The notes beneath the pieces were generated by a model, which had not been told where the DNA came from, did not search any database, and worked only from the letters and a program-made list of their open reading frames with translations. From positions 62,001 to 126,000 of the forward strand of contig WBUK01000011.1 of the NCBI GenBank assembly GCA_008933765.1: 64,000 nucleotides of DNA, written 5' to 3'. Positions 4,290 through 23,897 of the stretch are shown here, in pieces. Numbering within the stretch: the stretch's first letter is position 1; each line of letters opens with the position of its first letter. The position numbers were made by a program, and so were the translations under genes. Source of the stretch: Ignavibacteriaceae bacterium. GTDB taxonomy: Bacteria > Bacteroidota > Ignavibacteria > Ignavibacteriales > Ignavibacteriaceae.

Positions 4290-6752
4290 CTTTAGTGGAT
4301 TTGCCTTGACTTAAAAGGATTACGACACCATTCGCCATCAAACCTGTATACTTCCCTATTGGCTTCTTTAGTGGATTTGCCTTGACTTAAAAGGATTACG
4401 ACATTAATCGCAAAGTTTGAACATTTGTTGGTTTTTCTGGCTTTAGTGGATTTGCCTTGACTTAAAAGGATTACGACTCCATCTCCCATTCTTCGGGAGT
4501 GTTGAAGTCTTCGGTTACCGTTTCTTTAGTGGATTTGCCTTGACTTAAAAGGATTACGACAGGGAACTTTTTACTAGTACCCTTATGTAGTGTTCAAAGT
4601 TCTTTAGTGGATTTGCCTTGACTTAAAAGGATTACGACAACCTGCGGTATTAACCGCAAAGATTCAACCTTTACTGGCTTTAGTGGATTTGCCTTGACTT
4701 AAAAGGATTACGACGCGACTTGTGTGCTATATCAAAGCCGCTATGCTGTATGAAACGCTTTAGTGGATTTGCCTTGACTTAAAAGGATTACGACGAACGA
4801 CACAGAGGCGCTGGTTTCCCAGCGCCTTATACTTTAGTGGATTTGCCTTGACTTAAAAGGATTACGACAATATGCATCTACCCAGGTCAGTTTTTACTGA
4901 CACTGGTGTTGTGACTTTAGTGGATTTGCCTTGACTTAAAAGGATTACGACCCTCTTCTTCGTATATTTCATCGATTATATCTACTATGTCTTTAGTGGA
5001 TTTGCCTTGACTTAAAAGGATTACGACATATAAACATCGGACGTGTCGTTTTCTCTCTTTGTTCTTTAGTGGATTTGCCTTGACTTAAAAGGATTACGAC
5101 GTTTGGGTTTGTGGTTGATTATATTGAACCTGCGGTATTAACTTCAGGTCTTTAGTGGATTTGCCTTGACTTAAAAGGATTACGACGAACGGTGACTCAG
5201 AGTACTCATATGGAGTACTGAGTCTTTAGTGGATTTGCCTTGACTTAAAAGGATTACGACAGTTTTGGCGAACTAAGCTTCAGCACTAGCCTTAGCTTGT
5301 CTTTAGTGGATTTGCCTTGACTTAAAAGGATTACGACTTTGACTATAATTTAATTTGTTAACGAAGTCTAACGCTTCGTTAACAGTTTCTTTAGTGGATT
5401 TGCCTTGACTTAAAAGGATTACGACGGATCCCTACCGGCAGGGTAGAATATCAACAGTACTGCTCGCTCCCTTTCGGGACTTTAGTGGATTTGCCTTGAC
5501 TTAAAAGGATTACGACCAATTTCCTCCGCAAGTTGCAATGAGATTGAAGCGGAACTAAAGTAACTTTAGTGGATTTGCCTTGACTTAAAAGGATTACGAC
5601 GCTTCAATCTTTGTTTTGTGTGAATTTTAACGATTCAACGACTTTAGTGGATTTGCCTTGACTTAAAAGGATTACGACACCTGACCAAACGGGTCTTCCT
5701 TTTGCAAGGTTTTCCCGTTCTTGTAGGACTTTAGTGGATTTGCCTTGACTTAAAAGGATTACGACAGTATTCACTCATTTCTAACTCCTTTCGTTTAATT
5801 ATCCTTTAGTGGATTTGCCTTGACTTAAAAGGATTACGACCTCAGCTTTTTCCCGAGCAACATCGAGCGATCCTTTTCTTTAGTGGATTTGCCTTGACTT
5901 AAAAGGATTACGACGAATTGAGCCTGCTGAGCCTGCGGTATAAGTTGCAGGCTCTCCAGCTTTAGTGGATTTGCCTTGACTTAAAAGGATTACGACGTTC
6001 ATATCTTTATGTTCCTCATAACTGAATCTGATAAAACCTGAAACTTTAGTGGATTTGCCTTGACTTAAAAGGATTACGACTTAAGTCTTCACCGTTAGCT
6101 TCCTCTTCTGAGGAAACCAGTCTTTAGTGGATTTGCCTTGACTTAAAAGGATTACGACCCGAATGTAAATGTATGAGTTCTCATACCAATTCCTTTCGAT
6201 TGTTGACTTTAGTGGATTTGCCTTGACTTAAAAGGATTACGACATATTTCGACATTTCTATCAGTTTCCTGTGAGCTATCTGCTCCAGGACTTTTGCTTT
6301 AGTGGATTTGCCTTGACTTAAAAGGATTACGACTGATGGCTGGTTTTGTTGCACCTTTATCCCCTTTTTTAGGGGCTTTAGTGGATTTGCCTTGACTTAA
6401 AAGGATTACGACTCGTTTCCCAGCAGTTTTGTCAATATTTCTGCCAACTGCAAATTCTTTAGTGGATTTGCCTTGACTTAAAAGGATTACGACTTCTCCT
6501 CCGCACTAAGGTTACTTCTTTCGATTAACCCGTGCAGACTTTAGTGGATTTGCCTTGACTTAAAAGGATTACGACATTAGACCAATTAAGATTGTTAGGC
6601 TTACAGCAAACAGCAGCACACCTTTAATGGATTTGCCTTGACTTAAAAGGATTACGACAACCCAATTCCAAGGATTCTACATTTTACTGTAGTCCCTGGC
6701 GAAAGCTCTACAAAACTTTAGTGGATTTGCCTTGACTTAAAAGGATTACGAC
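4290..6752 (+). CRISPR. CRISPR array 1: 31 repeats, 30 spacers
   Basis: The 37-bp repeat begins CTTTAGTGGATTTG and ends AAAAGGATTACGAC. I count 31 copies starting at 4290, 4366, 4441, 4524, 4602 and so on to 6622 and 6716. Repeat 30 (6622) has one change (CTTTAATGG). Spacers are about 36-57 bp. The repeat end ATTACGAC is a plausible 8-nt crRNA 5' handle, as left by Cas6 in type III systems (for example the ATTGCGAC end of a Thermus type III repeat). On the minus strand most spacers read as fragments of genes: spacer 14 (5338-5388) reads TVNEALDFVNKLNYSQ and spacer 27 (6413-6456) reads NLQLAEILTKLLGN. Spacers 2, 5, 11, 17 and 21 encode related peptides. Confidence 0.98.
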
Positions 6753-6776
6753 TTGGCTATTTTTTTGGAAGTTTTC

Positions 6777-6814
6777 CGACCCAATTATATAGAACCACTT
6801 CGACCCAGTTATAT
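6777..6814. repeat. Imperfect direct repeat upstream of the zinc-ribbon gene
   Basis: CGACCCAATTATAT (6777-6790) and CGACCCAGTTATAT (6801-6814) lie 24 bp apart, 30-70 bp before the ATG at 6846. This placement suggests a promoter or operator, which is inference only. Confidence 0.45.
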
Positions 6815-6845
6815 CAATAAAGGTACAATATCAGAAAGGAGGCAT

Positions 6846-7130
6846 ATGTGTACTAATCTTAGATGTGAGGATTTTAATTTAGAAAGCAATGATTTGTGTT
6901 CTGAATGTAATTCTTACTTATTTGATAATTTTCATCTTGCTTATCAATGTCCTTACTGTAAAAAAGTTTGGATGGTAAGGGATAAATTTGTAGATGAAAA
7001 GGAGTATGATTCCAACATGCCATGCTTTATCTGCAATGAAGAAATGGCACGCAGAAGAGCAGATTGGGATAAGGGGAATAGAATTCTCCGAGAGTTAAAA
7101 GAAAAGAAAAATTCCAAAAAGAAAGAGTGA
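6846..7130 (+). CDS. Small double zinc-ribbon protein inside the array 1 trailer
   Basis: This 94-aa protein has four cysteine pairs: Cys2/Cys7, CSEC (18-21), CPYC (35-38) and CFIC (60-63). That pattern suggests two zinc ribbons, followed by a Lys/Glu-rich C-terminal helix. I do not recognise a named family. The start at 6846 is chosen because AAGGAGG sits just upstream; the frame extends further left but only through sequence next to the CRISPR repeat. The gene lies between the last intact repeat of array 1 (ends 6752) and a degenerate repeat at 7170, so it sits inside the array where a spacer would be. It is visibly more AT-rich than the cas genes, consistent with foreign origin. Possible roles, all inference: nucleic-acid-binding regulator or captured phage gene. 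Confidence 0.7.
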   Translation: MCTNLRCEDFNLESNDLCSECNSYLFDNFHLAYQCPYCKKVWMVRDKFVDEKEYDSNMPCFICNEEMARRRADWDKGNRILRELKEKKNSKKKE

Positions 7131-7169
7131 GGTATTGAATGGTACAATCAAGAAGCCCGCCCTGATTAT

Positions 7170-7206
7170 CTTTAGTGGATTTGCCATGACTTAAAAGGAT
7201 TTGAAA
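7170..7206 (+). repeat. Degenerate terminal CRISPR repeat of array 1
   Basis: The first 31 bases match the repeat apart from one change (GCCATGAC for GCCTTGAC), then the end diverges to TTGAAATC. It lies 417 bp after the last intact repeat, with the zinc-ribbon gene between. Degeneration here supports the right side as the old, trailer end. Confidence 0.85.
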
Positions 7207-7577
7207 TCAGGAATTTAGAGGGTGTTTAAGCCGCGGGGATATTTTTGTGCGGTAAAGATTTGAAAGATGAGATTAGTTTAAAAATTTCTTAACCGATTTA
7301 GAACATTCCGGGAAAGAAGACAAAACAGATGGGTTAAGAAAAATTTCGATTCATATTTTTTGGATATTCATCTCCGTCTCAGGATTTTTCCATCCAATCC
7401 ATTACAGTAAGAAGTTCATCAAAAAACTCAGTTCCACCAAGGTGAAAACCCCCTCAGTAAGCCACCCCTCTGTCGTCGTCGCCCCAAAAAACCACAAACA
7501 AGATTTGAAAAACGGACCAAGAAAAAGGGCCTGCCTTTAAGGGCAGGCCTCTGTTGAGCGTTAATAAAAACCGAAAT
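7207..7577. other. Intergenic region with a 10-bp inverted repeat
   Basis: No gene seen. TTTCTTAACC (7285-7294) and GGTTAAGAAA (7332-7341) form a 10-bp inverted repeat with a 37-nt loop. It could end the array transcript or be a binding site; no T-run follows directly. The end of the region holds the terminator of the minus-strand zinc-ribbon gene. Confidence 0.4.
7522..7550 (-). terminator. Rho-independent terminator of the minus-strand zinc-ribbon gene
   Basis: On the minus strand GGCCTGCC and GGCAGGCC form an 8-bp GC-rich stem with a 6-nt loop, followed by CTTTTTCTT. It lies about 30 bp after the stop of the small gene at 7578-7751. Confidence 0.8.
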
Positions 7578-8362: not shown

Positions 8363-9628
8363 ATGTCATCAGCAGCGGCAAAACTTTTCGCAACAAACAA
8401 TTACCCAAACAACGCGAACAACCCAAACAGCCCAAACAACACTTACAAAATCATTAATAACCAAACAAACGGGGAAAAAATGAGCTGGTTAATACCCCTT
8501 ACTCAACTCGATAACGAACAAAAAGGAATTTTGCAGAGCGTCAGAAACTCGCCCGGAAAGAATTTTTGGATAACGGGTTACGCCGGAAGCGGGAAATCGG
8601 TTCTCCTGATTCATATTGCTCTCAATCTGAAAGAGAGAAACCCGAACGCACGCATCGCAATTGTCGGGTTCACCCGTGCATTGGTTGACCAGCTGAACAC
8701 CGGCATCCCGTTCGAACTGAAACAAAGCATAAGTCTGTTTACTGTTTATGGTTTCATGCAGGACTACAGGGAGTGGGATTTCGTTCTTGTGGATGAAGTG
8801 CAGGATTTAAAACACGATTTCTTCGTGAAACTGAGCAGAATCAAAGCGAAAGTTATCGCCGCCGGGGATATGAACCAGTCAATTTATGATAACACCTGCC
8901 CCGAAGCAGATATAATAGAGTATTTGGATTTGGATATCCGCAGGCTGAACATAATCCATCGTCTCAGCCGGAGTGGGCGCCGGGTGGCAGCCCCTTTCTG
9001 CAACGATAAGGCGGGGTTTATGTCCGCTTCACTAAGTTCTGCTGTTGAATTGCGCCCTTCTTTGGTATCGGCAAAAAACAGAACCGAAGAATTGAAGTGG
9101 CTATCGGAAACAGCCGAAGAATACGCCCGGAAAGGGTATCAGACTGCTATACTTCTGCCTACACATGAGATTATTAAGAACTTCATCATCGATTTGTGCA
9201 GAGTAAAAAAAATAAACGCGGGGTTTGTAAAAGAAAAAAGCCCGGTGCAGTTTTATCAGGAATACTATGAAGATATTAATTTCGGGCTTCGGAATGCGGG
9301 GTTGAATTATCGTTATCTGGGCAACGGAGCGGGTGATCTGCGTGAGTTCCGCAACTCAAAACAAGTGTTGGTTATGACCTGGCACAGCTCCAAAGGGCTT
9401 GATTTCGAAGTTACTTTCCTGCCGTTTTTAACGAGTGATGCCACAATTTACGCCGGGAACAAACCCGCAGAAACCCTCTTCTTTGTGGCGCTTACCCGTG
9501 CACGGGAGCAGATGTTCCTTTCTTACAGCAATCTGAAACACCGTTTCCTGGGGATGATCGATTCTTCCGCCATAAACAAAATAAACGCCGCGGCAAAATC
9601 CGGTTCAAACCAAACTTTAGCATTTTAG
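8363..9628 (+). CDS. UvrD-like superfamily 1 helicase
   Basis: This 421-aa protein has Walker A GYAGSGKS (about residues 73-80), a DEVQD Walker B, AGDMNQSIYD (motif III-like), and near the C-terminus TWHSSKGLDFE (motif V) and VALTRAREQM (motif VI). It is short for UvrD/Rep and resembles the compact UvrD_C_2 class. It would unwind or translocate on nucleic acid. It is the first gene of the csm operon, 8 bp before the 474-aa unknown gene, so it may assist CRISPR adaptation or interference; that is inference. The start at 8363 has AAGGA upstream, but residues 1-39 are Asn-rich low complexity, and ATG 8480 (MSWLIPL) could be the true start. Confidence 0.85.
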   Translation: MSSAAAKLFATNNYPNNANNPNSPNNTYKIINNQTNGEKMSWLIPLTQLDNEQKGILQSVRNSPGKNFWITGYAGSGKSVLLIHIALNLKERNPNARIAIVGFTRALVDQLNTGIPFELKQSISLFTVYGFMQDYREWDFVLVDEVQDLKHDFFVKLSRIKAKVIAAGDMNQSIYDNTCPEADIIEYLDLDIRRLNIIHRLSRSGRRVAAPFCNDKAGFMSASLSSAVELRPSLVSAKNRTEELKWLSETAEEYARKGYQTAILLPTHEIIKNFIIDLCRVKKINAGFVKEKSPVQFYQEYYEDINFGLRNAGLNYRYLGNGAGDLREFRNSKQVLVMTWHSSKGLDFEVTFLPFLTSDATIYAGNKPAETLFFVALTRAREQMFLSYSNLKHRFLGMIDSSAINKINAAAKSGSNQTLAF

Positions 9629-9636
9629 GAGAAAAT

Positions 9637-11061
9637 ATGTATTATTTACCTGTAACCGTCTTGGAATTTACGAGCAAATACCGCATGGGGGCAATCAGTG
9701 CGCCGGAAGAATTTCTGATGAAAGAATTGCAGCCCGACGGGTGCTCCGAGCCCCTTCTGGAACATTTCTGCGGATTGTTCGAAGAGGAAGTGGATATTAT
9801 TTTCATCGGGTTCGAAAATTTTTCTTCCGGAGAGGGGAATTGGGCGCAGGTGCTTTCGCATGACATAACCGAGGTTCGTCCCTTATCCGATGGGGCGCGT
9901 GCATCGTTGGCTGCTAAACTGAGTGACTTGTATATCGGCGAGCCTGTTCCCGAAGCCCTTGCAATTAAGGTGCTCGAGTTCAGGAACAAAGAGTTAGCAG
10001 AGCGGGGTGCGGCTTTTTTGCGCGGGGTTTTCAATATTTCCGAAAAAGCTGTCGTATGGGAGTGGGTTGACAGCTGGATGGCTGCCCTTGAGTTGTTCAG
10101 AAGGGATCATCTTTTTACCCCTGAATCGGTCGCTGAGTGTATGATGACTTATGAAAGACGAAAAAGTTTTGAAAGGAGCGACATCGGCTTCTTCGAGGAT
10201 GCCGTAAGCCTTCTGAAGGGGATTTTGGGTGTACCCGAGGACTACAACAACAGGAAAAAATACCCGAACCGGAAGGAAATTGATAAAGCAATTAATCAAC
10301 TGAACGACCTGGCGGTCTTTAGAAACGAACTTATAGCGTCGGAAGCGACCGATATCCGGAATTTCATCTGTTTGGTAAGCAACCATCCGGTGGTAAATGA
10401 GATTAACGGTCAGATTTCCGAAGGAATTGGCGGTGCTCTTAACCCCATTCTGATGATTTTGTTCTATCTGAAGTTCAGGGCAATGATCCGGAACGGATTG
10501 GATGAGTATTTGCAGGAAGATTTCAAACGCACTGCGAGCGACCTGCTCACGGTTGCGCCGGCTGAAGCTTCAACGGCGCTGTATTTAGCCGGGCTGCGCT
10601 TTGGAATCGTTGCTTTTACCCCGATGTTCGGGTTGAAAAACAGGGCGAGTGCGCCGGTGGTGCACACAATGCACACAGACCGTGTTGTGCTTGATGGAGT
10701 GTCGCCATCGCAGGAGGGTGCCCGTCATTCTGAAAAGGCAACCCGCTCGAAAGCCCGGAAAAGCACAAAAAAAGAACCCACTGCTAAACCTGAAGGTAAA
10801 ACGAAAAAAAACCCGCTCGGGAAAGCTGAGTATGATGGAATGAAAGAACCGGTTGCGAAAAACCAATGTGTGGTTGTGGCCCCGGAACCGGAGGTATGGA
10901 AACAGAAGGCGTATTCGGACAGCCTGTTCCCTGATGAAGAACCGGAGGCGCAGAGCAAACCGGAAGATAGCAATCCGCGCAGATCTAAAGCCACATCCGC
11001 GCAAAATCCGAAGAAAAAGGCGGCGGGCACAATCCGGAAGAGGATAAATCAGAATGTCTGA
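9637..11061 (+). CDS. Unknown 474-aa protein of the csm operon
   Basis: I do not recognise this protein. Residues 1-330 look globular and mostly helical, with no catalytic motif I can name. Residues about 350-474 are a low-complexity tail very rich in Lys, Pro, Glu and Ser (KSTKKEP, GKTKKNP, NPKKKAAG), likely disordered and able to bind nucleic acid by charge. It starts 8 bp after the helicase stop, behind AGGAG, and precedes cas10 in the same direction. Co-operonic position makes it a candidate partner of the helicase or of the Csm complex; no sequence motif proves that. Confidence 0.8.
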   Translation: MYYLPVTVLEFTSKYRMGAISAPEEFLMKELQPDGCSEPLLEHFCGLFEEEVDIIFIGFENFSSGEGNWAQVLSHDITEVRPLSDGARASLAAKLSDLYIGEPVPEALAIKVLEFRNKELAERGAAFLRGVFNISEKAVVWEWVDSWMAALELFRRDHLFTPESVAECMMTYERRKSFERSDIGFFEDAVSLLKGILGVPEDYNNRKKYPNRKEIDKAINQLNDLAVFRNELIASEATDIRNFICLVSNHPVVNEINGQISEGIGGALNPILMILFYLKFRAMIRNGLDEYLQEDFKRTASDLLTVAPAEASTALYLAGLRFGIVAFTPMFGLKNRASAPVVHTMHTDRVVLDGVSPSQEGARHSEKATRSKARKSTKKEPTAKPEGKTKKNPLGKAEYDGMKEPVAKNQCVVVAPEPEVWKQKAYSDSLFPDEEPEAQSKPEDSNPRRSKATSAQNPKKKAAGTIRKRINQNV

Positions 11062-11281
11062 AAAAAATATTCGAAGTTTTATGAAAACAGTGTTTGATTT
11101 TTCAAAAAAATGTAGTAATATGTACCCTGAATTTCGAAGATTTTTAACAAGGGGGTACTCCTGCAGCCTCCTCAACAATACACACAATTTTTTGATTCAT
11201 CAAGCAAGCGTAAAAGCCGGGTTTACATCCGGTAACTACGGATATTTTTACTTCGGGAGCATAAATGGGAAAAAGCAATAA
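11054..11281 (+). CDS. Possible 75-aa ORF bridging the gap before cas10
   Basis: This ORF overlaps the end of the 474-aa gene by 8 bp and the start of cas10 by 17 bp, filling the only large gap in the operon. A GAGG stands about 12 bp before its ATG. The protein (MSEKNIRSF...) has no motif I recognise. The overlap pattern fits a translationally coupled small gene, but a chance ORF in a noncoding gap is at least as likely. Confidence 0.22.
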   Translation: MSEKNIRSFMKTVFDFSKKCSNMYPEFRRFLTRGYSCSLLNNTHNFLIHQASVKAGFTSGNYGYFYFGSINGKKQ

Positions 11282-13673
11282 ATATTCAGTTGCCTTAGCC
11301 GCACTTCTAAGCGATATTGGAAAAAGTAACCTGAAGCCGGCCGCCGGCGTTCAAAACACAGTGGAAGAGGCGATGGCATTTTTTGACGCGGCTTTCAACG
11401 GACAAAGCAAGGTGATTGCCTTAAGGGATGAAATCAGGCAACTTCTTGAAAACAAGGAAAACCCGATACTAAGGCTTACCGCTAATGCAAGCGAACACGA
11501 AGCCGGTGCCCGGGGTAACGACCGCAAGGTTCAAAGCAAGCCGCTGTTTTCCGTCCTTTCATTGGTTGAAACGGGGCGACCGTTGCCGAAAGGTGAGAGC
11601 TATTACCTCCCCGGCACTTCAAGTATTACAGATTGTTACCCCCGATCCGCCGGTTTACCAACAGTGGATGAACTGCAGGCTGCATCTGACAGTGTTTACC
11701 AAAATCTGCTGAACGACATCCACTCCATTCAGGATTCAGAGCCGGAGCAATTGATTGAAACACTGCTGTTTCTCTTCGAAAAGCACCTTTCTTACACACC
11801 TTCCGCCCGCTATCTGAGCAAACCGGATATTTCGCTGTTCGATCACCTTAAATCGACCGCAGCGCTTGCGGCATGCTACAACGAGACGGATAACGAAGAA
11901 AAACCATTTTTAATTGTGGCGGCGGATGTAAGCGGAATTCAAAATTTCATCTATTCGGAAACTAACCCGATCGAAAATATTCAGAAGGGGAGATCTAAGC
12001 AGTTCCGCGGAAAATCTTTCTATCTCTCGTTGCTTACCGATACTTTCAGCAGCTATCTGTTGCGCGAGGCGGGGGTTTCTTCAGCTAACCTGCTGATTAA
12101 CGGCGGCGGGCACTTCATTTTGGTCCTCCCGAACAGCGGGAATATTCGTAAAAAGATGGATGAAGCGAGAAAGAAGATTCAGACCTGGTTCTACAAAACC
12201 TACCGCGGCGAACTTAACCTGATTTTGGAAACCCTTGAAGTTGATGAAGAGCTTTACCAAAACTTCCCGAAATGGCACGGAAAGATCGCCAACAAACTTA
12301 CTGCCGCAAAAAAACAGAGAAGTATTCAGTTTCTGCCCGATATTTTTAAACTTAACCTTGATACTGCCCCGGTACAATATATTGCAAGCCCCAACAAAGA
12401 AGATGAAGACAGAGAGGATTGGGAGCGCCTGAATGGTTACGAGAAATTCCTTTACAGCCTCACTGTTATGTTCCAGGAGATCGGCGCTGTTATTCCGAAA
12501 GCCAAATTTATTTTGCGGAAAGATACACCGGCTGACAGAAAACCGGCGTACAACCGAAACCAAAGCTGTGCGGAAATTGCTTTCCCCGCCTTTGGGATTA
12601 CATGGCTGATCGCTTCATCGGTGAAAGATGTGAACAAGTGGTTGGAAAATAACCCCGGCGGCAACACTTCGGTTTACTCCGTTAATTCCTTTGAGCTGAC
12701 CGGCGGTCTGAATGTCGCCGAAGAAGAAGCCGCGCGGATGGCGTTCGGCACGAAACTTATCGGGAAATATGCGCCCGCAGTTCAGGGAGGTGACTCCGTG
12801 CTCGAGTTCCCCGCACTTGCCGAGCTTAACACCGAAGGTGAAAAGAAATTGGGCTATCCGCTCCTCGCAGTCCTTAGGATGGATGTTGATAACTTAGGCG
12901 CCGTTTTCAGTTTTGGGCTTGAAAGAGAAAATGACAGCGAGAGTATCCGCTCGCTTTCAAGAACCGTGAACCTTTCCCGTCTGTTGAACCTCTTTTTTAC
13001 CGGTTATATCAATCAACTTGCCGAAAAACGGAAAATTTACATCACTTACTCCGGTGGCGACGATCTTTTTGTGGTCGGCTCCTGGATTAACGCCGTTGAG
13101 TTTGCCTTTGAAGTCCGCGAGGCGTTCAATAAGTTTTCCGGAGGCAACTCTAACCTCTCTGTTTCCGCAGGAATGTACCTCTGCAAGGAAAACTATCCGA
13201 TCCATAAAGCGGCGGCGCACGCCGGAAGTGCGGAAACGAGTGCAAAAAATTCATCACCCGACAAGGACAGTATTTCCCTCTTTGGGAAAGAAATGAAGTG
13301 GAGCCGCGCTAAGGAACTGCTGAATTACGGGAAGGCTATCGACTCGTTGGTTGAAACTAATAATGAAGACGAGAAGATTTCGGCGAGCTATGTCCATTTT
13401 CTGCTAAGCCAAACTTCTAAAATGTTGAATGATGATAAAAAGATCGACCTTGAAAAATATTTCAAAGGAATGTTTAAAATTAAATATTCGTTAGCGCGCA
13501 AGCCGAGAAATATCGATTACAAAGCAATACAGGAAGACAGCAACAAAACAAAACCGAACAAGAAAGTTGAGTTGTTCGGCCGCCTGATTAACAGCGAAAA
13601 AAGCACCGAATTAATTCAGGATTTTGTCGTGCCCGCTTCCTATGTAATTTTTAAAAACAGAACCACCAAATAA
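11265..13673 (+). CDS. cas10: Cas10/Csm1, type III-A, HD motif degenerate
   Basis: Cas10 is the large subunit of the Csm complex. The palm domain that makes cyclic oligoadenylate carries an intact GGDD at residues 597-600 (YSGGDDLFVVG), preceded by MDVDNLGAVF; an earlier palm has DVSGIQNFIY at about residue 225. The N-terminus ALAALLSDIGK (10-20) aligns with the HD signature LLHDIGK of Csm1, but His is replaced by Ser, so DNA cleavage by the HD site is doubtful. The N-terminal HD region also looks short. Start at 11265 has GGGAG upstream. The next gene, csm2, follows after 12 bp with a strong AAAGGAGG. Presence of csm2 fixes the subtype as III-A. Confidence 0.95.
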   Translation: MGKSNKYSVALAALLSDIGKSNLKPAAGVQNTVEEAMAFFDAAFNGQSKVIALRDEIRQLLENKENPILRLTANASEHEAGARGNDRKVQSKPLFSVLSLVETGRPLPKGESYYLPGTSSITDCYPRSAGLPTVDELQAASDSVYQNLLNDIHSIQDSEPEQLIETLLFLFEKHLSYTPSARYLSKPDISLFDHLKSTAALAACYNETDNEEKPFLIVAADVSGIQNFIYSETNPIENIQKGRSKQFRGKSFYLSLLTDTFSSYLLREAGVSSANLLINGGGHFILVLPNSGNIRKKMDEARKKIQTWFYKTYRGELNLILETLEVDEELYQNFPKWHGKIANKLTAAKKQRSIQFLPDIFKLNLDTAPVQYIASPNKEDEDREDWERLNGYEKFLYSLTVMFQEIGAVIPKAKFILRKDTPADRKPAYNRNQSCAEIAFPAFGITWLIASSVKDVNKWLENNPGGNTSVYSVNSFELTGGLNVAEEEAARMAFGTKLIGKYAPAVQGGDSVLEFPALAELNTEGEKKLGYPLLAVLRMDVDNLGAVFSFGLERENDSESIRSLSRTVNLSRLLNLFFTGYINQLAEKRKIYITYSGGDDLFVVGSWINAVEFAFEVREAFNKFSGGNSNLSVSAGMYLCKENYPIHKAAAHAGSAETSAKNSSPDKDSISLFGKEMKWSRAKELLNYGKAIDSLVETNNEDEKISASYVHFLLSQTSKMLNDDKKIDLEKYFKGMFKIKYSLARKPRNIDYKAIQEDSNKTKPNKKVELFGRLINSEKSTELIQDFVVPASYVIFKNRTTK

Positions 13674-13685
13674 AAGGAGGAGATT

Positions 13686-14090
13686 ATGCCTTTAGAAAAT
13701 CTCAACGGAGTTAAAGACCTTTCGGAAATCAAACCGGAAGATATTGACAGTATTGGCAAAACGATGGGCAAAAGTTTAGTTGACCGTGAAGTGAAAACTA
13801 ACCAGCTCAGGAATTTTTATTCTTCCATCATCTCAATAAGAACAAAATTAAGAAAAGAGAAGAGTGTAACTCCGGCGATAGAGAGGGAATTAGTGCTCTT
13901 GAAGCCTAAGCTTGCATACGCAACCGGCAGAAACAAAAAGGTTATGGAATTATACAATTTAATGCAGGACGGTATCGGTGCTACCGTATCCGAAAATGTG
14001 AGCGATAAGAAAGCAGCGCTTGCTAACCTTATTTCAATTACGGAAGCGATTGTTGCCTACCATAAATTTCACGGCGGAAAAGATAAATAA
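13686..14090 (+). CDS. csm2: Csm2, small subunit of the Csm complex
   Basis: This 134-aa helical protein carries the Csm2 pattern VKTNQLRNFYSSI near residue 37, LLKPKLAYATGR in the middle, and a C-terminal EAIVAYHKFHGG. Csm2 is the small subunit that lines the crRNA-target duplex in type III-A complexes. It has an excellent ribosome site (AAAGGAGG) and sits 12 bp after cas10 and 11 bp before csm3. Its presence separates III-A from III-B and III-D. Confidence 0.93.
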   Translation: MPLENLNGVKDLSEIKPEDIDSIGKTMGKSLVDREVKTNQLRNFYSSIISIRTKLRKEKSVTPAIERELVLLKPKLAYATGRNKKVMELYNLMQDGIGATVSENVSDKKAALANLISITEAIVAYHKFHGGKDK

Positions 14091-14101
14091 AGGAGTTAAA
14101 G

Positions 14102-14848
14102 ATGTCATTCGAATTTAAAAAAAATATTATAATCAGAGGCCGGATCGAGACCCTCACAGGTATGCACATCGGCGGAAGTAAAGAAAAACTTGAAATTGGC
14201 GGTGTGGATAGCCCCGTTATCCGCGATCCATTCACTCAGCAGCCTTATATTCCCGGCTCTTCTCTGAAAGGAAAAATGAGGATGCTCATTGAATTTGCAC
14301 ACGGGAAAGTTGTAAATTCCGGAAAACCTTATGAATCAGACGATCCGGATGATGAAATCTGCCGTGTTTTTGGAAACTTCGTTAAAGGCACTAAGGGGGG
14401 GCCCACAAGGCTAACAGTACGGGATGCGTATCCAACGAAAGAAACGATTGAAATGTGGGAAGGGATGGAATCTGAACTTCTTTTCACCGAGCTGAAACCT
14501 GAAAACTCGATAGACCGGTTGACCTCCGAAGCTAACCCCCGTTTTCTTGAAAGAGTGGTTAAAGGGTCAATGTTTAACTTTGAGATGATCTACAGTGTTT
14601 ACGACGATAAAGATGAAGAGAATCTTAAAATCGTTTATCAGGCAATGCGGCTGCTTGAGCACTCCGGTATCGGTGGGAGTATCTCAAGGGGATACGGAAG
14701 AATTGCCTTTTATCTTGCTGACCCCGTTGAGGTGGCTGCCGAAGATTATATAACCGGAAATGAGAGATACAAAGAGAGCACTGCCTCTGTTTCCGATGAG
14801 GATACTTCGAAGCTTAAAACATTAGACAATTTAGAACCGGTGAATTAA
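14102..14848 (+). CDS. csm3: Csm3, RNase backbone subunit
   Basis: This 248-aa RAMP protein forms the helical backbone of the Csm complex and cuts target RNA every 6 nt. The N-terminal block GMHIGGS is followed by GGVDSPVIRDP; Asp36 in it corresponds to the catalytic Asp of Csm3. PYIPGSSLKGKMR (48-60) is the RAMP Gly-rich motif, and a second Gly-rich loop (SGIGGSISRGYGRI) lies near residue 195. RNA cleavage should therefore be intact. AAAGGAG precedes the start. Tight spacing on both sides (11 and 19 bp) shows operon structure. Confidence 0.96.
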   Translation: MSFEFKKNIIIRGRIETLTGMHIGGSKEKLEIGGVDSPVIRDPFTQQPYIPGSSLKGKMRMLIEFAHGKVVNSGKPYESDDPDDEICRVFGNFVKGTKGGPTRLTVRDAYPTKETIEMWEGMESELLFTELKPENSIDRLTSEANPRFLERVVKGSMFNFEMIYSVYDDKDEENLKIVYQAMRLLEHSGIGGSISRGYGRIAFYLADPVEVAAEDYITGNERYKESTASVSDEDTSKLKTLDNLEPVN

Positions 14849-14867
14849 GACCAATAAAAGGGATGAA

Positions 14868-15941
14868 ATGAAAATTGTTTATTTAACTCCGAAATCTTCA
14901 TTCCGGGAGACAATGAGGTCAGACAGTCTCTGGGGCTTAATCTGCTGGGGGGTGCGAACCCTTTGGTCGGAGGAAGAGCTTTTGGCTATGATCGAGGGCT
15001 ACAATTCCGGTGCCCCGTTGAAGGTCTCTTCCGCTTTTAAGTGGATAAATACCGACAGCGGCCTCCGGCGGTTTTTCCCTAAGCCGTTGTTGCCTCCGTT
15101 TGACCTTTCAGATTTACTCGAAGGGAAGCCCAAAAGCGAAAAAATGAAGATTTTCAGCAATCTGAAGAAGTGGCGAAGCCAAAAAACCGTTTCCGAAGAA
15201 GTTTTCTTTAGGTTCATTACCGGTGATTTGGATGAAAAAGGCTTCTTTACCGATGAGGCTTTGTGGGCTTCTGACTCAATGAAAAAAAGATTCAGGGTTG
15301 AGACCACCATTCACAACTCGATAAACAGACTGACTGCTTCCGCGAACAAACCGGTTGACCCCGAGAACCCTGAGCAGAGTGAAAAAGGCTTTGGCGGTCC
15401 GTTTACGCGGGAAAATGTTTTTGCCAAAGACGCCGGGCTTTTCTTCCTGATTGATGGTGAGCCTGAGTATTTGGAAAAAGCTGAGGCTGCCCTTAGGCTC
15501 TATTCTCATATAGGGTTTATGGGAGATTCTTCCGTGGGTAAGAGCCACTTCGATATAAGATTTGAAGACTTCGCAGCACCATCCGTTGATAACCCTTCCG
15601 GGTTTGTTACGCTTTCACTATTTATCCCGACTGAAGAAGAAGCGGCGTTCTTTTCAGCCGGCGTAAACAACGCAAACGAAGAGGGAAATAACAACGGAGA
15701 ACCGGGCGCTGCCCCTTATTATGAACTTGAAACACGGAAAGGGAAGGTTAGCTCGGCTCACTTGAGTACTGAAGATTTTTGGAAAAAATCGGTCCTCGCT
15801 TTTCGTGAAGGCTCTTATTTCCCCGGTATGAAAAAAAATAATTACGGAACACTGAAAGAAGTAAAACAAACCGGGGGGGAAAGCGGGTTCACCGTATATC
15901 AGTCCGGTATTGCATTTAATCTTCCTGCGAGGTTGAAATGA
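14868..15941 (+). CDS. csm4: Csm4, crRNA 5'-handle-binding RAMP
   Basis: This 357-aa protein shows the Csm4 N-terminal pattern MRSDSLWGLICWGVR (LRSDtLFGal type) and KVSSAFKW, and C-terminal RAMP-like segments. Csm4 caps the complex next to Cas10 and holds the 5' tag of the crRNA. Its stop overlaps the csm5 start by 4 bp (ATGA), a coupled arrangement typical of this gene pair. Confidence 0.9.
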   Translation: MKIVYLTPKSSFRETMRSDSLWGLICWGVRTLWSEEELLAMIEGYNSGAPLKVSSAFKWINTDSGLRRFFPKPLLPPFDLSDLLEGKPKSEKMKIFSNLKKWRSQKTVSEEVFFRFITGDLDEKGFFTDEALWASDSMKKRFRVETTIHNSINRLTASANKPVDPENPEQSEKGFGGPFTRENVFAKDAGLFFLIDGEPEYLEKAEAALRLYSHIGFMGDSSVGKSHFDIRFEDFAAPSVDNPSGFVTLSLFIPTEEEAAFFSAGVNNANEEGNNNGEPGAAPYYELETRKGKVSSAHLSTEDFWKKSVLAFREGSYFPGMKKNNYGTLKEVKQTGGESGFTVYQSGIAFNLPARLK

Positions 15942-17632
15942 AATTAAGAATTAAAACTATCACCCCGCTGCACATCTCTACGGGGAAAGATTTGGAAACG
16001 CTCGATTATGTGTATCAGGATAACTTTATCTACAGGCTGCACTTGGAGAAATCGTTGGAGATTCTGGCAACCGAAGACCCCGGCGTTTACTCTAAGTTTT
16101 CCGACTGGGTGGATGCCAAGATCGGAAGCCTTCTGAAAACTGATGACAACAAGGAGCAGAGCGAAACCCGGAAAACCACAAACCTGAAAGAGTTTTGCAG
16201 GGTTAAATACCCGCAATCCGGCATTTTTTCCAAAGTGCTGGAGGGGGCAACACTTTACAAAGCGTTTGCACCTTTTGGGCGCGGCGAAAGTTCCCTCCTG
16301 AATGAACAGATTAAAGACTCTGCTAACAAACCCTACATCCCCGGTTCAAGCATTAAGGGGGCGATTAAAACTGCGCTTGCCGCAAATGCCTGGAGTAAGT
16401 TGAGCGATGGTGAAAGAAAGAAAGTTTTGGGTGATGAAAAAACCCGTGTGCTAAAAAAGAACAATCGTATAGAATATTCAGACGAACCTTTAATGAATCA
16501 TCTGTTTACCTGCAGGGTCGTTCCTGATGAACAAAGGTGGAGAAACAAAAAAATATTTTTTGACCCTGCGCGCTTCAGCATAATGAGGTTTTTTCACTTT
16601 TCCGACGCACACATCGTTGAACCTTTCGGGGAAAACGCTCTCGAGGTACTGCCCGTTTATCTCTATCTGAAAGGGAAAGAACCGCAACCGCAAACCAACT
16701 CCCAGGAAGTTATCCCCAAAGGGGTGGTATTTGAGTTTGATTTCAGAGTTGATGTTGAAGGGCTGTACACCGCCTTCAGGGAAAGTAAACATCCAAAAGG
16801 GATGTGGCGCGATTTAAGCACCAAAATTGAACGGCTGTTTGATGTAAAGTTGGATAATGTGGCGAAAGGTGATTACGAGAAACTCCTTACCGACGGGCTT
16901 TTTTCCGTACTTGGTGGGGTTCAGGCGGTTGAAAAGTTTAATCAGGACCGGGCTTGGCTGAGAGAGTTTCTTAAAATATCCGGAGGCGGAGGAATTGCGC
17001 CTGATGCGGCTGAAAGGCTCAATGCGTTTATCGGCGACAGAGTCTCCGAGGTAGGCGGGACTATTAAGATCGGATGGGGTTCCGGGTTTACCTCGACTAC
17101 CATTTTTAACCCTTTGAAGACCTCTGACAAAGAGTTTGTCAGGGAGATGTTTAAAGAACTCGGGATTGGGGTCAGAAAAAGTAAAGGAGAGAAAAAGAAT
17201 GCGCCTGTTGACTTAGACAATTTCCCGAAATCAAAAAGGATGACTGCGCAGTCGATAACTTCTCCTGAATTTTTCCTCGGCTGGGTTCAGATTGCACCGG
17301 ATTTGAAGCCGGAGCCTTTTGTGAGGAAAAAGATTGAAATGGTTACCGAGAAAGAACCTCTTACAAGAGAAGAATGGATAAAAGAACTTCAGAAAGAAAA
17401 CGAGAGCCAAAAGCCGAAGAACAATCAGGCGGTAAGGATGAATGCTGTCGTTCTAAGGTCTGAACCGCCTTTTATTTTTGTGCAACTTCTGCACAGTGAA
17501 TTTAATGCTGAGTATAGAGTTAAATACCCCGCCGGTTTACAGGCAGATACTTTGGTAACGGTGCAGGTTACTTTTCAGAAAGGGAAAATTGTTAATCAAC
17601 CGACACTTCCAAAACCGTTAAATCAGCCATAG
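15938..17632 (+). CDS. csm5: Csm5, with extended C-terminus
   Basis: Csm5 is the RAMP subunit at the 3' end of the crRNA. Visible motifs are ITPLHISTG at the N-terminus and PYIPGSSIKGAIKTA (about residues 131-145), plus a Gly-rich loop KIGWGSGFTS near residue 381. At 564 aa it is long for the family (usually about 350-420). The extra C-terminal part (about 410-564) has a charged helix and then a beta-rich segment (MNAVVLRSEPPFIFVQL ... VTVQVTFQKG) that could be a small OB-like domain. It overlaps csm4 by 4 bp and is 64 bp from cas6. Confidence 0.9.
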   Translation: MKLRIKTITPLHISTGKDLETLDYVYQDNFIYRLHLEKSLEILATEDPGVYSKFSDWVDAKIGSLLKTDDNKEQSETRKTTNLKEFCRVKYPQSGIFSKVLEGATLYKAFAPFGRGESSLLNEQIKDSANKPYIPGSSIKGAIKTALAANAWSKLSDGERKKVLGDEKTRVLKKNNRIEYSDEPLMNHLFTCRVVPDEQRWRNKKIFFDPARFSIMRFFHFSDAHIVEPFGENALEVLPVYLYLKGKEPQPQTNSQEVIPKGVVFEFDFRVDVEGLYTAFRESKHPKGMWRDLSTKIERLFDVKLDNVAKGDYEKLLTDGLFSVLGGVQAVEKFNQDRAWLREFLKISGGGGIAPDAAERLNAFIGDRVSEVGGTIKIGWGSGFTSTTIFNPLKTSDKEFVREMFKELGIGVRKSKGEKKNAPVDLDNFPKSKRMTAQSITSPEFFLGWVQIAPDLKPEPFVRKKIEMVTEKEPLTREEWIKELQKENESQKPKNNQAVRMNAVVLRSEPPFIFVQLLHSEFNAEYRVKYPAGLQADTLVTVQVTFQKGKIVNQPTLPKPLNQP

Positions 17633-17696
17633 TAACCGGCTGTTAATCGCATATTTGGGAACTTAAAACTTAGGAAACCGTAACGACAATCAGAGG

Positions 17697-18653
17697 ATGA
17701 AAATACCGGAACTTGACATTTACTCATTCGAGATAACCCTCGGTATGTTGGGGCGCTTTGAAACCCCAAAATATATGGGTTCTCTCCTTAAGGGTTCTTT
17801 CGCCTGGGCGTTCAGAAATATCGTTTGCGTTACGAAGCAGCCTACATGCGAGGGGTGCATGCTGAAAGATACATGCGCCTACTTCCGGATTTTTGAAACT
17901 GAAATCTCTGCCGGCCATATTCCATACTTAAAAGGGGTGCGCAAAGTACCGCATCCCTTTGTGCTTACGCCGCCACTTAACGGCAAAACCCTCTATGAGC
18001 CGGGCGAAAAGCTGAAAATTCAGCTGCGATTGTTCGGTTCTGCCGTGCAGTTGCTCCAATATTATGTTTTTGTCTTTCAGCAGATCGGAAAGCGCGGCTT
18101 CGGGAGGGCGGATACTTTGTTTGAGGTTTTGGAGTTCAACGCAGTCATAGGGAACGAAGTGGTGCCCGTGATAACTCCGGACGGCAAAACTATGACCGCC
18201 GATCTCCCAACTCTGAGAGTGCCTGCCGCCACTGAGGAGAATTTTATCGGCTTTCAAAGCGTTAATTTAGAGTTCACAACCCCCGTAAGGATTCAGGAGG
18301 CGGGCAAAGTGCTGCTGAAAAAAGACAATGTTACACCCGCCGTTATTCTGAACGGATTGTACAGACGCTATCTGGCACTGGCGGGGCTTTACGGCAACGG
18401 GGGTTTTTTGGATCAAAAACCGGATTTTCCTTATGAAGAGATTGAAGTCTCTTCCAATTCCCTTGCACCGTTCGACTGGGGGAGGTACTCGAATCGTCAG
18501 AAAAACTATTTGGATATGAGCGGTCTGATTGGCAGCATCTCTCTTTCCGGGAATATCCTCCCGGCAATTCCGTGGCTGTTGGCTGGCTCGCGCATAAATA
18601 TGGGCAAAAACACAGCCTACGGTCTGGGGCAATTTCGCGTGGTGCTGAGCTGA
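17697..18653 (+). CDS. cas6: Cas6 crRNA-processing endoribonuclease
   Basis: This 318-aa protein fits the Cas6 family with C-terminal domain PF10040. It has MGSLLKGSFAWAFRN near residue 27, a Cys cluster CEGCMLKDTC (52-61), HPFVLTPP, GKRGFGRAD, and the terminal Gly-rich MGKNTAYGLGQF. Cas6 cleaves the repeat transcript, which here would leave the 8-nt handle AUUACGAC. No His lies in the first 70 residues, so the catalytic base is not obvious. It is the last gene of the operon and is encoded apart from RT-Cas1, unlike Cas6-RT-Cas1 fusions. Confidence 0.9.
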   Translation: MKIPELDIYSFEITLGMLGRFETPKYMGSLLKGSFAWAFRNIVCVTKQPTCEGCMLKDTCAYFRIFETEISAGHIPYLKGVRKVPHPFVLTPPLNGKTLYEPGEKLKIQLRLFGSAVQLLQYYVFVFQQIGKRGFGRADTLFEVLEFNAVIGNEVVPVITPDGKTMTADLPTLRVPAATEENFIGFQSVNLEFTTPVRIQEAGKVLLKKDNVTPAVILNGLYRRYLALAGLYGNGGFLDQKPDFPYEEIEVSSNSLAPFDWGRYSNRQKNYLDMSGLIGSISLSGNILPAIPWLLAGSRINMGKNTAYGLGQFRVVLS

Positions 18654-19747: not shown

Positions 19748-20119
19748 CTTTAGTGGATTTGCCTTGACTTAAAAGGATTACGACTTAGAGATTGCGGCGT
19801 TGCTAAAGTACCGCCGTCTGTCTGTTGGGGCTTCAAGACTTTAGTGGATTTGCCTTGACTTAAAAGGATTACGACATCAGAGATGCTGCCTCTCTGATAC
19901 CCCAGCTTATCCTTTAGTGGATTTGCCTTGACTTAAAAGGATTACGACATTATCAATAGCTTTCGTGTCTATTTTATCAAAGTTATTTTTCCCTTTAGTG
20001 GATTTGCCTTGACTTAAAAGGATTACGACACTTCGGTAAGTTCATCACCCTCTTTGGGGTGATCATCCTTATCGATACACTTCTTTAGTGGATTTGCCTT
20101 GACTTAAAAGGATTACGAC
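19748..20119 (+). CRISPR. CRISPR array 2: 5 repeats, 4 spacers
   Basis: Repeats of the same 37-bp type start at 19748, 19839, 19912, 19993 and 20083; all look intact. Spacers are 54, 36, 44 and 53 bp. Spacer 2 holds ATCAGAGA/TCTCTGAT and spacer 4 holds ATCACCC/GGGTGAT as hairpins. On the minus strand spacer 4 reads KCIDKDDHPKEGDELTEV. The shortness suggests a young or rarely used array. Confidence 0.98.
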
Positions 20120-20348: not shown

Positions 20349-22244
20349 ATGCAACTATTTTTAATATTTTTATCCCTTTATTTTTATTTTACTTTTTCAC
20401 CCGACGGGGTTGCGCAGTATCAAATAGAGTTCATCGAAGAATTCGATATGCCGGTTTTCACGAAAGAAGAGGATACCCTTTGGATTGGCGGCAAAGGTAA
20501 GTTGGTTAAATATGAGATAAACACGGGTAAAAAAACTGATTATGCCGCGGATTTAATCGATACCGTAATTAGCGAAATTGTCTTAGGTAACGGAGGGGTT
20601 AAATATATCCTTTTGAAATCGTCACGCCTCTTAACATTCAACGGCAACGGCTTCCGGACGATCAACACTTCTGATTCATCGGGATATAGAATCGATGATG
20701 TTGCCGTTGACCCAAACGGTTACCTGTGGTTTGCCAATACTGAAAAAGTGATTAAGTATCAGGATGGAAAATATATCTTGTTTAACTTACCGGAGGTTTC
20801 AAATTCTCTGAATGGTGCGGCAAAAAATTTAACGATAGCAAAAGACGGTACCGTTTGGGTTACAATCGAAATACCTCCTTTAATTGTCATGCGTGATCTC
20901 CCTACATTTGGAGAAGTTTATAACTTTGTAAAGACGAAAAACTCCGCCGGTTTTGTTCAATCTGAGCAGCTTTCAGCAGCGGTTCTGTTTTCTCAAAATG
21001 GGGAGGTATTTACAGCAGATTACTTAAATAACATCTATAAGTATCAAAACGGGAGGTGGTATCCCTCTAATAATCCCCTTATTACAGGATATTACAGAGA
21101 GGGAAAAAAGGTTTATCAGGAAACTCCTTTGTCGGAACAGGAACCTCAGGGTTGGTTTTCCCCCAAGTTAGTGGGGGAATTGCAGATTTACGGAAATGAA
21201 GGATGGTTTTCGCTGAGAAAAGGATTTATCTGCAGACTAAGGAACAAACCGGAGTATATTCAACTTAATCCGCTGGCGTACGGAAAGATGGAATTTTTCC
21301 TCAACCGGAAACGAGAGGTTGTCGGTAAGTTAGGGAACGACTATTACGGCATAAAAGCAGGTGAGTTGCGTAAACTCGCAGCTAACGAGAATGATACCGG
21401 TTCGGTTGTTGAAAAGGAAAACCCATTCTCTGAAGCGAGATTGCCCTTTTGGTTAGAAGATCGCGACTTATGGGTTTACGATTTTAATCCAAAAACAGAT
21501 TCGGTTCTGCTGAAAAAACTAAAGTCCAAAAATTCCAAATACCTTAAATTTCACGGTTCAAAATCAGTGGAGTTAATTTTACCGGAGGGAATTAAGGATA
21601 CTTACCCATCAAGTTTCACTTTTGATAACGAAGGTGTTCTGTGGGGTTTGGGTGGTCTTTCTGTACTGCGTTTGAAAAATGATAAATGGGAAAAATTTGC
21701 TGTTGAGATAGTTAATAAAACTCCCGTTAATAATACAGAAACCACCGGAGAAGATGCGCCTGAAGTATCCGGTTATTTGGCGAGGATCGTTGTAGATAAC
21801 AACAACCAAAAGTACTTGTGTGCTATAGAGGGTTTTTTTCGTCTGAATGATTCAATGAAATTAGAAATGTTGCAGCCGCACTTTGGGTTATACAGCGACA
21901 AACATTTCCGGTTTACCGGCGATTTAATTTTTGAGACTGAAAATTATTTATCAGGGCAGGAGCCACAAAACTATTTTTATTTTAAAAACGAGTTTATTGA
22001 TAATTTCTCGGGCAATTATTGTTTAGATGAAGAACGAAACCTGTGGACTGTCAGTAAATATCCGAGTGAGATAACGGTTTATTACGCTGATTCCGCTTAT
22101 AAAGGAAAAGAGAAGTTCAATATTTCGGGCATTCCTGACTTAAGTTTGGTCAAAAAAATTATGGCGGATAAATACTCCAACATTTGGGTGGTTCATTCAA
22201 GCGGGGTTAATGTGTATAACCGTGAGGGAGTTCGCTTTCAGTAA
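20349..22244 (+). CDS. Secreted beta-propeller-like protein between arrays 2 and 3
   Basis: This 631-aa protein starts with a hydrophobic signal-like segment (MQLFLIFLSLYFYF). The body shows repeated blade-like units of the two-component-regulator-propeller type, such as VAVDPNGYLWFANT, TIAKDGTVWVT and FTFDNEGVLWGLGG. It has no membrane anchor or output domain, so it is probably a periplasmic or exported binding protein of unknown ligand. GAGGGAG precedes the ATG. It is the only gene between arrays 2 and 3, about 230 bp after array 2 and 90 bp before leader 3. It shows no link to CRISPR function beyond position and may be host DNA split by array duplication. Confidence 0.75.
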   Translation: MQLFLIFLSLYFYFTFSPDGVAQYQIEFIEEFDMPVFTKEEDTLWIGGKGKLVKYEINTGKKTDYAADLIDTVISEIVLGNGGVKYILLKSSRLLTFNGNGFRTINTSDSSGYRIDDVAVDPNGYLWFANTEKVIKYQDGKYILFNLPEVSNSLNGAAKNLTIAKDGTVWVTIEIPPLIVMRDLPTFGEVYNFVKTKNSAGFVQSEQLSAAVLFSQNGEVFTADYLNNIYKYQNGRWYPSNNPLITGYYREGKKVYQETPLSEQEPQGWFSPKLVGELQIYGNEGWFSLRKGFICRLRNKPEYIQLNPLAYGKMEFFLNRKREVVGKLGNDYYGIKAGELRKLAANENDTGSVVEKENPFSEARLPFWLEDRDLWVYDFNPKTDSVLLKKLKSKNSKYLKFHGSKSVELILPEGIKDTYPSSFTFDNEGVLWGLGGLSVLRLKNDKWEKFAVEIVNKTPVNNTETTGEDAPEVSGYLARIVVDNNNQKYLCAIEGFFRLNDSMKLEMLQPHFGLYSDKHFRFTGDLIFETENYLSGQEPQNYFYFKNEFIDNFSGNYCLDEERNLWTVSKYPSEITVYYADSAYKGKEKFNISGIPDLSLVKKIMADKYSNIWVVHSSGVNVYNREGVRFQ

Positions 22245-22336
22245 GCGGAAAGATTTGGCGATATTTTCCCTTTTTTTGTCGGTTATTGGCGCCGGTTTCA
22301 GAGGGGTTTGATTAGGGAATTGCCGGTGAAAAAAGG

Positions 22337-22809
22337 CGTTTTCTCGTGAGAAAATTTGACCTTTTCGGGTTTTTCGCTCTAACTCTTTACAATATAAGGG
22401 GTTAAGCCGCTTTTTTTGAAACTTTTGAAAAATTTAAAATTTCTCATGAGCACTTTTTGGGGGGTCTTCAAATCGCTCGTGAGAAAATCGGCATTTTTAC
22501 CCTTCGATTTTGAGCCAAAAACGCAACTTTAAAAGGGCGATTTTCTCATGAGCACTTTTTCGACGGGTTTTAAATCGCTCGTGAGAAAATTTTGAGTTTC
22601 CCAAATTGTGCGTTTTTGGGCTGTATTCCAACTTTTTGGGCGTTTTTTACCCATTTTTCGGTACCTTTTTCGCCGATTTGTTGCAAAAAATTTTGTGCTC
22701 ATGAGAAAATTTGAGGTTTTTTCCTATGTTATTTCATTATAATCACTTAAATTGTATAAACCATTTGGGGTTTTTTCTGAAACACTGCTAAGTGATTGTT
22801 CCATAAGCT
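22337..22809 (+). promoter_or_regulatory. CRISPR leader of array 3 (copy 3)
   Basis: Third copy of the 473-bp leader, ending at the first repeat of array 3. It differs from copies 1 and 2 by a few substitutions only, for example TTTACAATATAAGG for TTTACAGTATAAGG. All six dyads and the terminal inverted repeat are present. Confidence 0.85.
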
Positions 22810-23897
22810 CTTTAGTGGATTTGCCTTGACTTAAAAGGATTACGACCCTTAGGGAGAAAACATACTGATTTTCAGTATCATCCTTTAGTGGATTTGCCTT
22901 GACTTAAAAGGATTACGACCTGATTGAGTTTGATTCCAGTATTTTTCTCATTTGAACCTCAAATTCTTTAGTGGATTTGCCTTGACTTAAAAGGATTACG
23001 ACAAGCGGGTGCACGGGGTGTTCTTTCACCGCCGTAAGGTTTAACACCCTCACTTTAGTGGATTTGCCTTGACTTAAAAGGATTACGACAATTAATATAG
23101 CCTCTACGATCGATCTATACATAGCCTATCCTTCTTTAGTGGATTTGCCTTGACTTAAAAGGATTACGACGTCATCGACCGCAATGGTCGTTTGTGTCTT
23201 TCCGCTCTCGGCTTTAGTGGATTTGCCTTGACTTAAAAGGATTACGACAATGGTGATTCACTGTACTCGTACGGAGCACTTAATGCTCCGCCGGTACCGT
23301 CTTTAGTGGATTTGCCTTGACTTAAAAGGATTACGACCATTAAAACGATATACTTCCCGTCCAGCTTTAGGATCTTTTTGATCCCTACCTTTAGTGGATT
23401 TGCCTTGACTTAAAAGGATTACGACAAATGAGATAGACGCACTTTCTGTCCATCTCTTCACGGCTTTAGTGGATTTGCCTTGACTTAAAAGGATTACGAC
23501 TCGTTTATTAACATTGCCATGCTGTCAATGGTTTGGTAACCACTTTAGTGGATTTGCCTTGACTTAAAAGGATTACGACCCCACAAGGATGGAGCTCCGA
23601 TGAAATTGTTGTTGTCTTTAGTGGATTTGCCTTGACTTAAAAGGATTACGACTCATGGCCCCACAAGGATGGGGCTCTGATGAAATTGTTACTGTTTTTC
23701 TTTAGTGGATTTGCCTTGACTTAAAAGGATTACGACCCCTCTATTCTGGACGTCAGTATCAGGCCTAAGCCTTCGATACTGTTTCTTTAGTGGATTTGCC
23801 TTGACTTAAAAGGATTACGACTTGCTAAAAACTGGGCTATTTCGCCCTTGATTTTCTTTTCTTTAGTGGATTTGCCTTGACTTAAAAGGATTAGAAA
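22810..23897 (+). CRISPR. CRISPR array 3: 14 repeats, 13 spacers
   Basis: Repeats of the same type start at 22810, 22883, 22966, 23053, 23134, 23212, 23301, 23389, 23464, 23543, 23616, 23700, 23785 and 23861. The last one is degenerate at its end (GGATTAGAAATT instead of GGATTACGAC), marking the trailer. Spacers 10 (23580-23615) and 11 (23653-23699) are variants of one target. On the minus strand spacer 4 (23090-23133) has AAGGA plus ATG and reads MYRSIVEAILI, and spacer 5 (23171-23211) reads ESGKTQTTIAVDD, a P-loop-like fragment. Confidence 0.98.

Follow-up and report, generated by a model that had tools for sequence, protein, structure and literature searches.

Strong hairpin excess in the spacers of a type III-A CRISPR locus with a YADN-type RT-Cas1 fusion from an Ignavibacteriaceae bacterium

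The 47 spacers of a type III-A CRISPR locus of an Ignavibacteriaceae bacterium form perfect stems several times more often than dinucleotide-shuffled controls, and they read like antisense copies of coding RNA. The locus lies within a stretch of 64,000 nucleotides, which was analysed as a whole and is referred to as the window. According to the explanation favoured here, which is held tentatively and at slightly less than even confidence, the spacers would derive, as antisense copies, from coding RNA of a few related invaders that was taken up by an RT-Cas1/Cas2 complex with a preference for folded RNA fragments.

Judged by profile matches, the locus encodes a full type III-A system including Cas2 and RT-Cas1, and its annotated cas genes are located on the plus strand. 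Cas2 (965-1249; Pfam CRISPR_Cas2, 8e-25; NCBIfam cas2 above cutoff) adjoins the RT-Cas1 fusion (1254-3647), in which the RT domain (Pfam RVT_1, 2e-23) covers about residues 1-300 and the Cas1 domain (Pfam Cas_Cas1, 2e-60) residues 466-790, the layout of an RT-Cas1 adaptation module. The effector genes comprise Cas10/Csm1 (11265-13673; NCBIfam Csm1, 1e-136), Csm2, Csm3, Csm4 and Csm5 (13686-17632; NCBIfam models above cutoff), with Csm1 to Csm5 encoded together, and Cas6 (17697-18653; Pfam CRISPR_Cas6, 3.5e-12; PADLOC Cas6, 2e-76). The palm motif GGDD of Cas10 is intact and its N-terminal HD motif reads SD (LLSDIGK, 11265-11340), with serine in the place of the usual histidine of this nuclease motif; presumably, this suggests a loss of DNase activity together with retention of cyclic-oligoadenylate signalling. 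A 284-aa protein at 40-894 is matched weakly by the CARF-RelE and Csm6 models of PADLOC (best E 2.7e-9) and is a possible type III ancillary effector. Further genes are interspersed: the stretch between array 1 and Cas10 (8363-11061) encodes a UvrD-like helicase fragment of 421 aa together with an unknown protein of 474 aa, and a 631-aa protein, the sole match of which is a weak two-component propeller repeat, is encoded between arrays 2 and 3 (20349-22244).

The spacers are distributed over three plus-strand arrays with a common 37-nt repeat (CTTTAGTGGATTTGCCTTGACTTAAAAGGATTACGAC), further copies of which were not found elsewhere in the bacterium's own genome. Array 1 (4290-6752; spacers 4327-6715) comprises 31 repeat copies and 30 spacers of 36-57 nt, array 2 (19748-20119; spacers 19785-20082) four spacers, two of them with stems of at least 7 bp, and array 3 (22810-23897; spacers 22847-23860) 13 spacers, four of them with such stems, and a degenerate final repeat. 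Over all arrays, spacer length ranges from 36 to 57 nt with a mean of 44. In the leader of array 1 (3810-4289, plus strand), CTCRTGAGAAAAT/GTGCTCRTGAGAAAAT recurs in several copies, both direct and inverted (3810-4200), and leader-like elements of about 73% identity occur in the relative G001 (contig C354). Since a 300-nt leader copy lies upstream of each of the three arrays on the plus strand and degenerate repeats lie at the opposite end of arrays 1 and 3, the crRNA is taken to correspond to the plus strand.

Stems were defined as perfect pairing with a loop of at least 3 nt, and 2000 dinucleotide shuffles served as control. Stems of at least 6 bp are present in 19 of the 47 spacers, compared with a mean of 5.8 and a maximum of 14 in the shuffles, and stems of at least 7 bp in 10 of 47 (shuffle mean 1.4, maximum 7); four spacers reach at least 8 bp and two at least 9 bp. 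A first-pass annotation had counted about 16 and 9-10 spacers in the two main classes by hand, the former number being real but slightly low, and had estimated that chance would yield about one spacer with at least 7 bp, in agreement with the shuffles. The comparison of folding with shuffled controls, as suggested there, revealed the same excess in energy terms: the mean MFE is -9.67 for the minus strand, which represents the target RNA (shuffles -5.95 +/- 0.33), and -8.80 for the plus strand (shuffles about -5.9), so that the spacer set deviates from the shuffles by a z of about -10 to -13. Random windows from the host part (25000-64000) carry stems of at least 6 bp in 12% of cases versus 40% of the spacers, and this part of the window is without a stem excess like that of the spacers. 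Chance or a composition artefact can be set aside as the source of the stems with near certainty; while all natural spacers tested share a weak excess, about 1.4-fold for stems of at least 6 bp, the excess at this locus is 3.3-fold for at least 6 bp and 7-fold for at least 7 bp, was never reached in 2000 shuffles and is contributed by all three arrays, which refutes this account here.

All stems named previously were recovered, namely TGTTAACGAAG in spacer 14, AGGCGCTGG in spacer 7, GAGCCTGC in spacer 21, ATCAGAGA in spacer 32 (array 2 spacer 2) and CAGTATC in spacer 46 (array 3 spacer 12). The longest is the 11-bp perfect stem TGTTAACGAAG/CTTCGTTAACA of spacer 14 (5338-5388, plus strand), which ends 4 nt short of the spacer 3' end; the reading frames of this spacer are open on the minus strand only (TVNEALDFVNKLNYSQ). 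The 9-bp stem AGGCGCTGG/CCAGCGCCT of spacer 7 (4795-4831, plus strand) likewise ends 4 nt short of the 3' end. Spacer 21 (5915-5959, plus strand) contains an 8-bp stem, GAGCCTGC/GCAGGCTC, in a hairpin that is the same as in spacer 11, and the hairpin of spacer 12 (5187-5223, plus strand) is mostly kept in the homologous spacer 40. Many of the hairpins lie within coding sequence, in line with the earlier remark that they are not simply terminators.

The coding character of the spacers is apparent from four homologous groups (1/41, 2/5/11/21, 12/40 and 44/45), all of which keep a single orientation. In the minus-strand reading, most changes within 1/41, 12/40 and 2/5/11/21 are synonymous or conservative, and the codon pattern of group 44/45 is ambiguous. 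Spacers 12 and 40 both encode S[AT]PYEYSESP on this strand, with the same serine written as AGT in one case and TCT in the other, and the peptides REVYRF and LIPQ are shared in homologous groups as well. In addition, the minus strand of spacers 19, 24 and 38 shows a ribosome-binding-site-like motif with a start codon. Pyrimidines predominate in the crRNA strand (purine 42.7%, t = -6.8), a skew also found in several other RT arrays, most non-RT arrays being near 50%. On the basis of codon patterns, purine skew and the shared orientation of homologues, the crRNAs are judged to be antisense to coding RNA, which is what a type III effector needs. The spacers look RNA-derived, as far as their single orientation and antisense reading indicate, and both features would fit acquisition from RNA by reverse transcription. 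A wobble-pair test for which of the two strands folds gave no significant difference.

The homologous spacers further allow the hairpins themselves to be followed between variants. The hairpin of spacer 12 lies wholly inside the region common to spacer 40, where one A-U pair of the sense RNA has become G-U and an end pair is lost; between spacers 45 and 44 a C-G pair is changed to U-G, with two outer pairs extending past the end of spacer 44 so that only the inner pairs are shared; and between spacers 11 and 21 an outer A-U pair is replaced by G-C through a compensatory change on both sides. Pairing is kept in three of the four changed pairs, which is suggestive of conserved RNA structure, the cases being too few for a test. 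In spacers 12, 11 and 21 both arms belong to sequence shared with a homologous spacer and the open reading frames span both arms, which marks the hairpins as native to the target wherever homologues permit the check. Since both arms belong to the target, snap-back copying is unneeded. Such copying, in which the RT switches to its own cDNA as template and produces a second arm and thereby a palindrome absent from the target, had been offered as one origin of the stems, and the length of some of them and their position near one spacer end would suit it; with both arms shared in 12/40 and 11/21 (inner pairs only in 45/44) and reading frames continuing through them, it is considered very improbable.

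The first-pass annotation had also suggested a comparison over the RT-Cas1 loci of related genomes, and a generalization of the hairpin richness to RT-Cas1 systems at large fails on the related loci available. Comparison arrays were taken from RT-Cas1 relatives in GTDB contigs and from related genomes. Among 278 other RT-linked spacers, 38 contain stems of at least 6 bp (24.7 expected) and nine stems of at least 7 bp (6.2 expected), and the corresponding numbers for 534 non-RT spacers are 44 (31.2 expected) and seven (7.0 expected). Both sets show an equal slight excess, from which the locus in the window stands out as an outlier, and hairpin richness as a general RT-Cas1 trait was rejected on these numbers. 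The nearest large RT-Cas1 array, L064 with 59 spacers, is at background, and its long spacers are without hairpins. Enrichment beyond both shuffles and other arrays, as would characterize a structure-preferring type III adaptation, is found at the locus described here; the behavior of the other RT-Cas1 arrays, and of L064 above all, counts against the favoured explanation. For the nearest relative, G001, about five spacers are assembled. Mildly raised stem contents were seen in L021 (Flavobacteriales, 18 spacers) and L190 (16 spacers). In the array of the former (L021:13331-14798) the mean stem excess corresponds to z = 5.0 over 18 spacers, and two spacers carry 9-bp stems starting 0-1 nt from the 5' end.

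The stem excess depends on spacer length. Long spacers (at least 45 nt) account for most of it, with a mean folding z of -2.46 compared with -1.06 in shorter ones (p = 0.005), whereas for random levivirus windows z shifts just from -0.62 at 38 nt to -1.02 at 53 nt, a shallower slope than that of the spacers. Moreover, in seven of the ten stems of at least 7 bp, the distance between stem end and spacer 3' end is 3-5 nt (permutation p = 2.5e-4 for a range chosen post hoc). Both the length dependence and the offset of the stem ends argue for an involvement of the hairpin in capture. We infer that the enzyme itself is the chooser of hairpins, and the manner of choice may be pictured as follows. 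The hairpins would be present in the invader RNA before capture; the stem-loop would shield an RNA fragment or offer a duplex with a short overhang which Cas1 could hold; the RT would copy the fragment starting from the single-stranded side, and the copy would be integrated in the orientation that makes the crRNA antisense to the RNA. Capture of folded fragments would explain why long spacers hold most of the excess and why the stems end 3-5 nt from one end. Of the earlier proposal that structured RNA is the preferred substrate of this RT-Cas1, the non-chance hairpins and the RNA-like, antisense nature of the spacers stand, and the snap-back origin finds no support, nor does an extension to RT-Cas1 systems in general.

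A close competitor of this explanation, doubtful but a real possibility, dispenses with any preference and assumes that the source RNA is structured throughout, e.g., the genome of a small RNA phage folded in an ordered manner along its whole length, and is sampled at random. The partial conservation of hairpins between variants, with pair-keeping changes, would agree with it, as would the recurrence of homologous spacers, which fits a small target. The six homology links among the 47 spacers correspond to an effective target size of about 5-20 kb, and at least six links have a probability of 0.004 for a target of 40 kb; the estimate assumes uniform sampling and a single target family, and a larger DNA phage represented by a handful of strongly expressed genes would give the same picture. 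Leviviruses are indeed structured, random 44-nt windows of 52 of them giving a median z of -0.76 and the most structured one averaging -1.28, so that the shorter spacers fall within their range, whereas the long ones lie beyond all leviviruses examined. The mean z of the whole spacer set is -1.72 with a bootstrap 95% interval of -2.24 to -1.21; the interval reaches past the top levivirus, and random sampling of a structured source is thus statistically possible, which speaks against selection.

The search for this source yielded no protospacer in the collections covered. Nucleotide searches of the arrays against phage and plasmid collections and the bacterium's own genome returned chance-level matches only, peptide searches and profile scans with spacer translations returned none, and IMG/VR, searched with degenerate back-translated patterns, yielded nothing beyond two contigs, which were dismissed as chance because the matches are antisense to an unrelated phage ORF. 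The lack of a DNA-phage, plasmid or own-genome match in the collections searched is compatible with a structured RNA source. Leviviruses, the initial idea, were rejected as this source after comparison with 89 sequences: the sense RNA of the spacers has an A-U skew of +0.19, compared with -0.05 +/- 0.04 and a maximum of 0.03 in the leviviruses, and peptide matches of at least 24 bits to them were absent, simulated levivirus sets of the same size giving a median of 7.5 and a minimum of 1. Typical leviviruses are unlikely as the source on these grounds. The spacer composition is close to the coding strands of Bacteroidota DNA phages (A-U skew +0.11 and +0.16), which likewise argues against the random sampling of a structured RNA genome.

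The same DNA-phage-like composition lends some weight to another alternative, in which the substrate would be hairpins of displaced single-stranded coding-strand DNA of a DNA invader and the RT would be unneeded for these spacers. In PMC9048733, adaptation by RT-less type III-A systems is described as preferring hairpin-forming sequence with enrichment of the coding strand, as this alternative would demand. A weakened RT would also fit the enzyme found here, motif C of which reads RYADN and not RYADD (window 1917-1931, RT-Cas1 residues about 223-227). The canonical YxDD is absent, and YADN occurs in the window and in seven of seven clade relatives, i.e., in eight distinct RT-Cas1 proteins, whereas other RT-Cas1 proteins have YADD at this motif. 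The YADN proteins of this Ignavibacteria-like clade form one tree group (support 86/88), and their arrays feature longer and more variable spacers, with locus means of 43.6 nt versus 36.8 nt in YADD relatives (p = 2.5e-4 by a statistic that ignores shared ancestry). Among the papers searched, none mentions YADN along with YADD and reverse transcriptase, and YADN may be filed as a variant of the RT-Cas1 adaptation module. YADN fails to explain the hairpins because L064 has it and is without hairpins. This also weakens the case for DNA hairpins as substrate, as do the intact RT reading frame, fused in eight distant clade members, and a strand bias exceeding that of the non-RT arrays used for comparison, and this alternative is regarded as improbable.

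Acquisition from RNA by RT-Cas1 and spacer repertoires without targets are already known (PMC5513706; PMC11014452). As in Marinomonas mediterranea (III-B), Fusicatenibacter saccharivorans and Vibrio vulnificus (III-D), an RT-Cas1 fusion and Cas2 lie by a type III effector, and the spacers are apparently taken from RNA, without self matches and without known targets, like the enigmatic repertoires described in PMC5513706. Unlike the systems named, the locus presented here combines long, variable spacers of 36-57 nt, a strong stem excess and YADN; type III spacer length in general is given as centred on 36 in the review PMC9048733. With the RT-less type III-A systems of Streptococcus thermophilus and Staphylococcus epidermidis the locus shares its type, an apparent preference for structured sequence and a coding-strand bias, and it differs from them by the fusion of an RT to Cas1. 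The hairpins preferred there belong to rRNA, tRNA, terminators and single-strand origins, and whether Cas1-Cas2 itself senses structure is posed as an open question, both according to PMC9048733. That preference was seen after laboratory acquisition, whereas the hairpins here are inside foreign coding regions and in natural arrays. By analogy, the hairpin preference at this locus would best be filed as one of the same kind as in RT-less type III-A systems, though stronger, and seen in arrays that arose naturally at a type III-A locus linked to an RT.

Which sequences RT-CRISPR systems store in nature, and by what rule the adaptation complexes pick RNA, is an open field, to which the locus adds a natural spacer set with a strong structural signature, a consistent orientation and internal homology, which limits the target to few coding sequences. 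The signature points either to a substrate of folded RNA or to a structured RNA invader that awaits discovery. In a combined reading, which is speculative and rather unlikely, the arrays would be the memory of a group of RNA phages of Ignavibacteria-like hosts that are unsampled and distinct from leviviruses; their coding genome would be small, A-rich and strongly folded, and the recorder would be an RT-Cas1 of the YADN type capturing RNA in folded form. As a possible source, Leviviricetes would agree in their structured coding RNA and small genome, but their A-U skew is opposite to that of the spacers and peptide similarity is absent. If true, unsampled structured RNA phages would help to explain the target-less spacers of RT-CRISPR systems.
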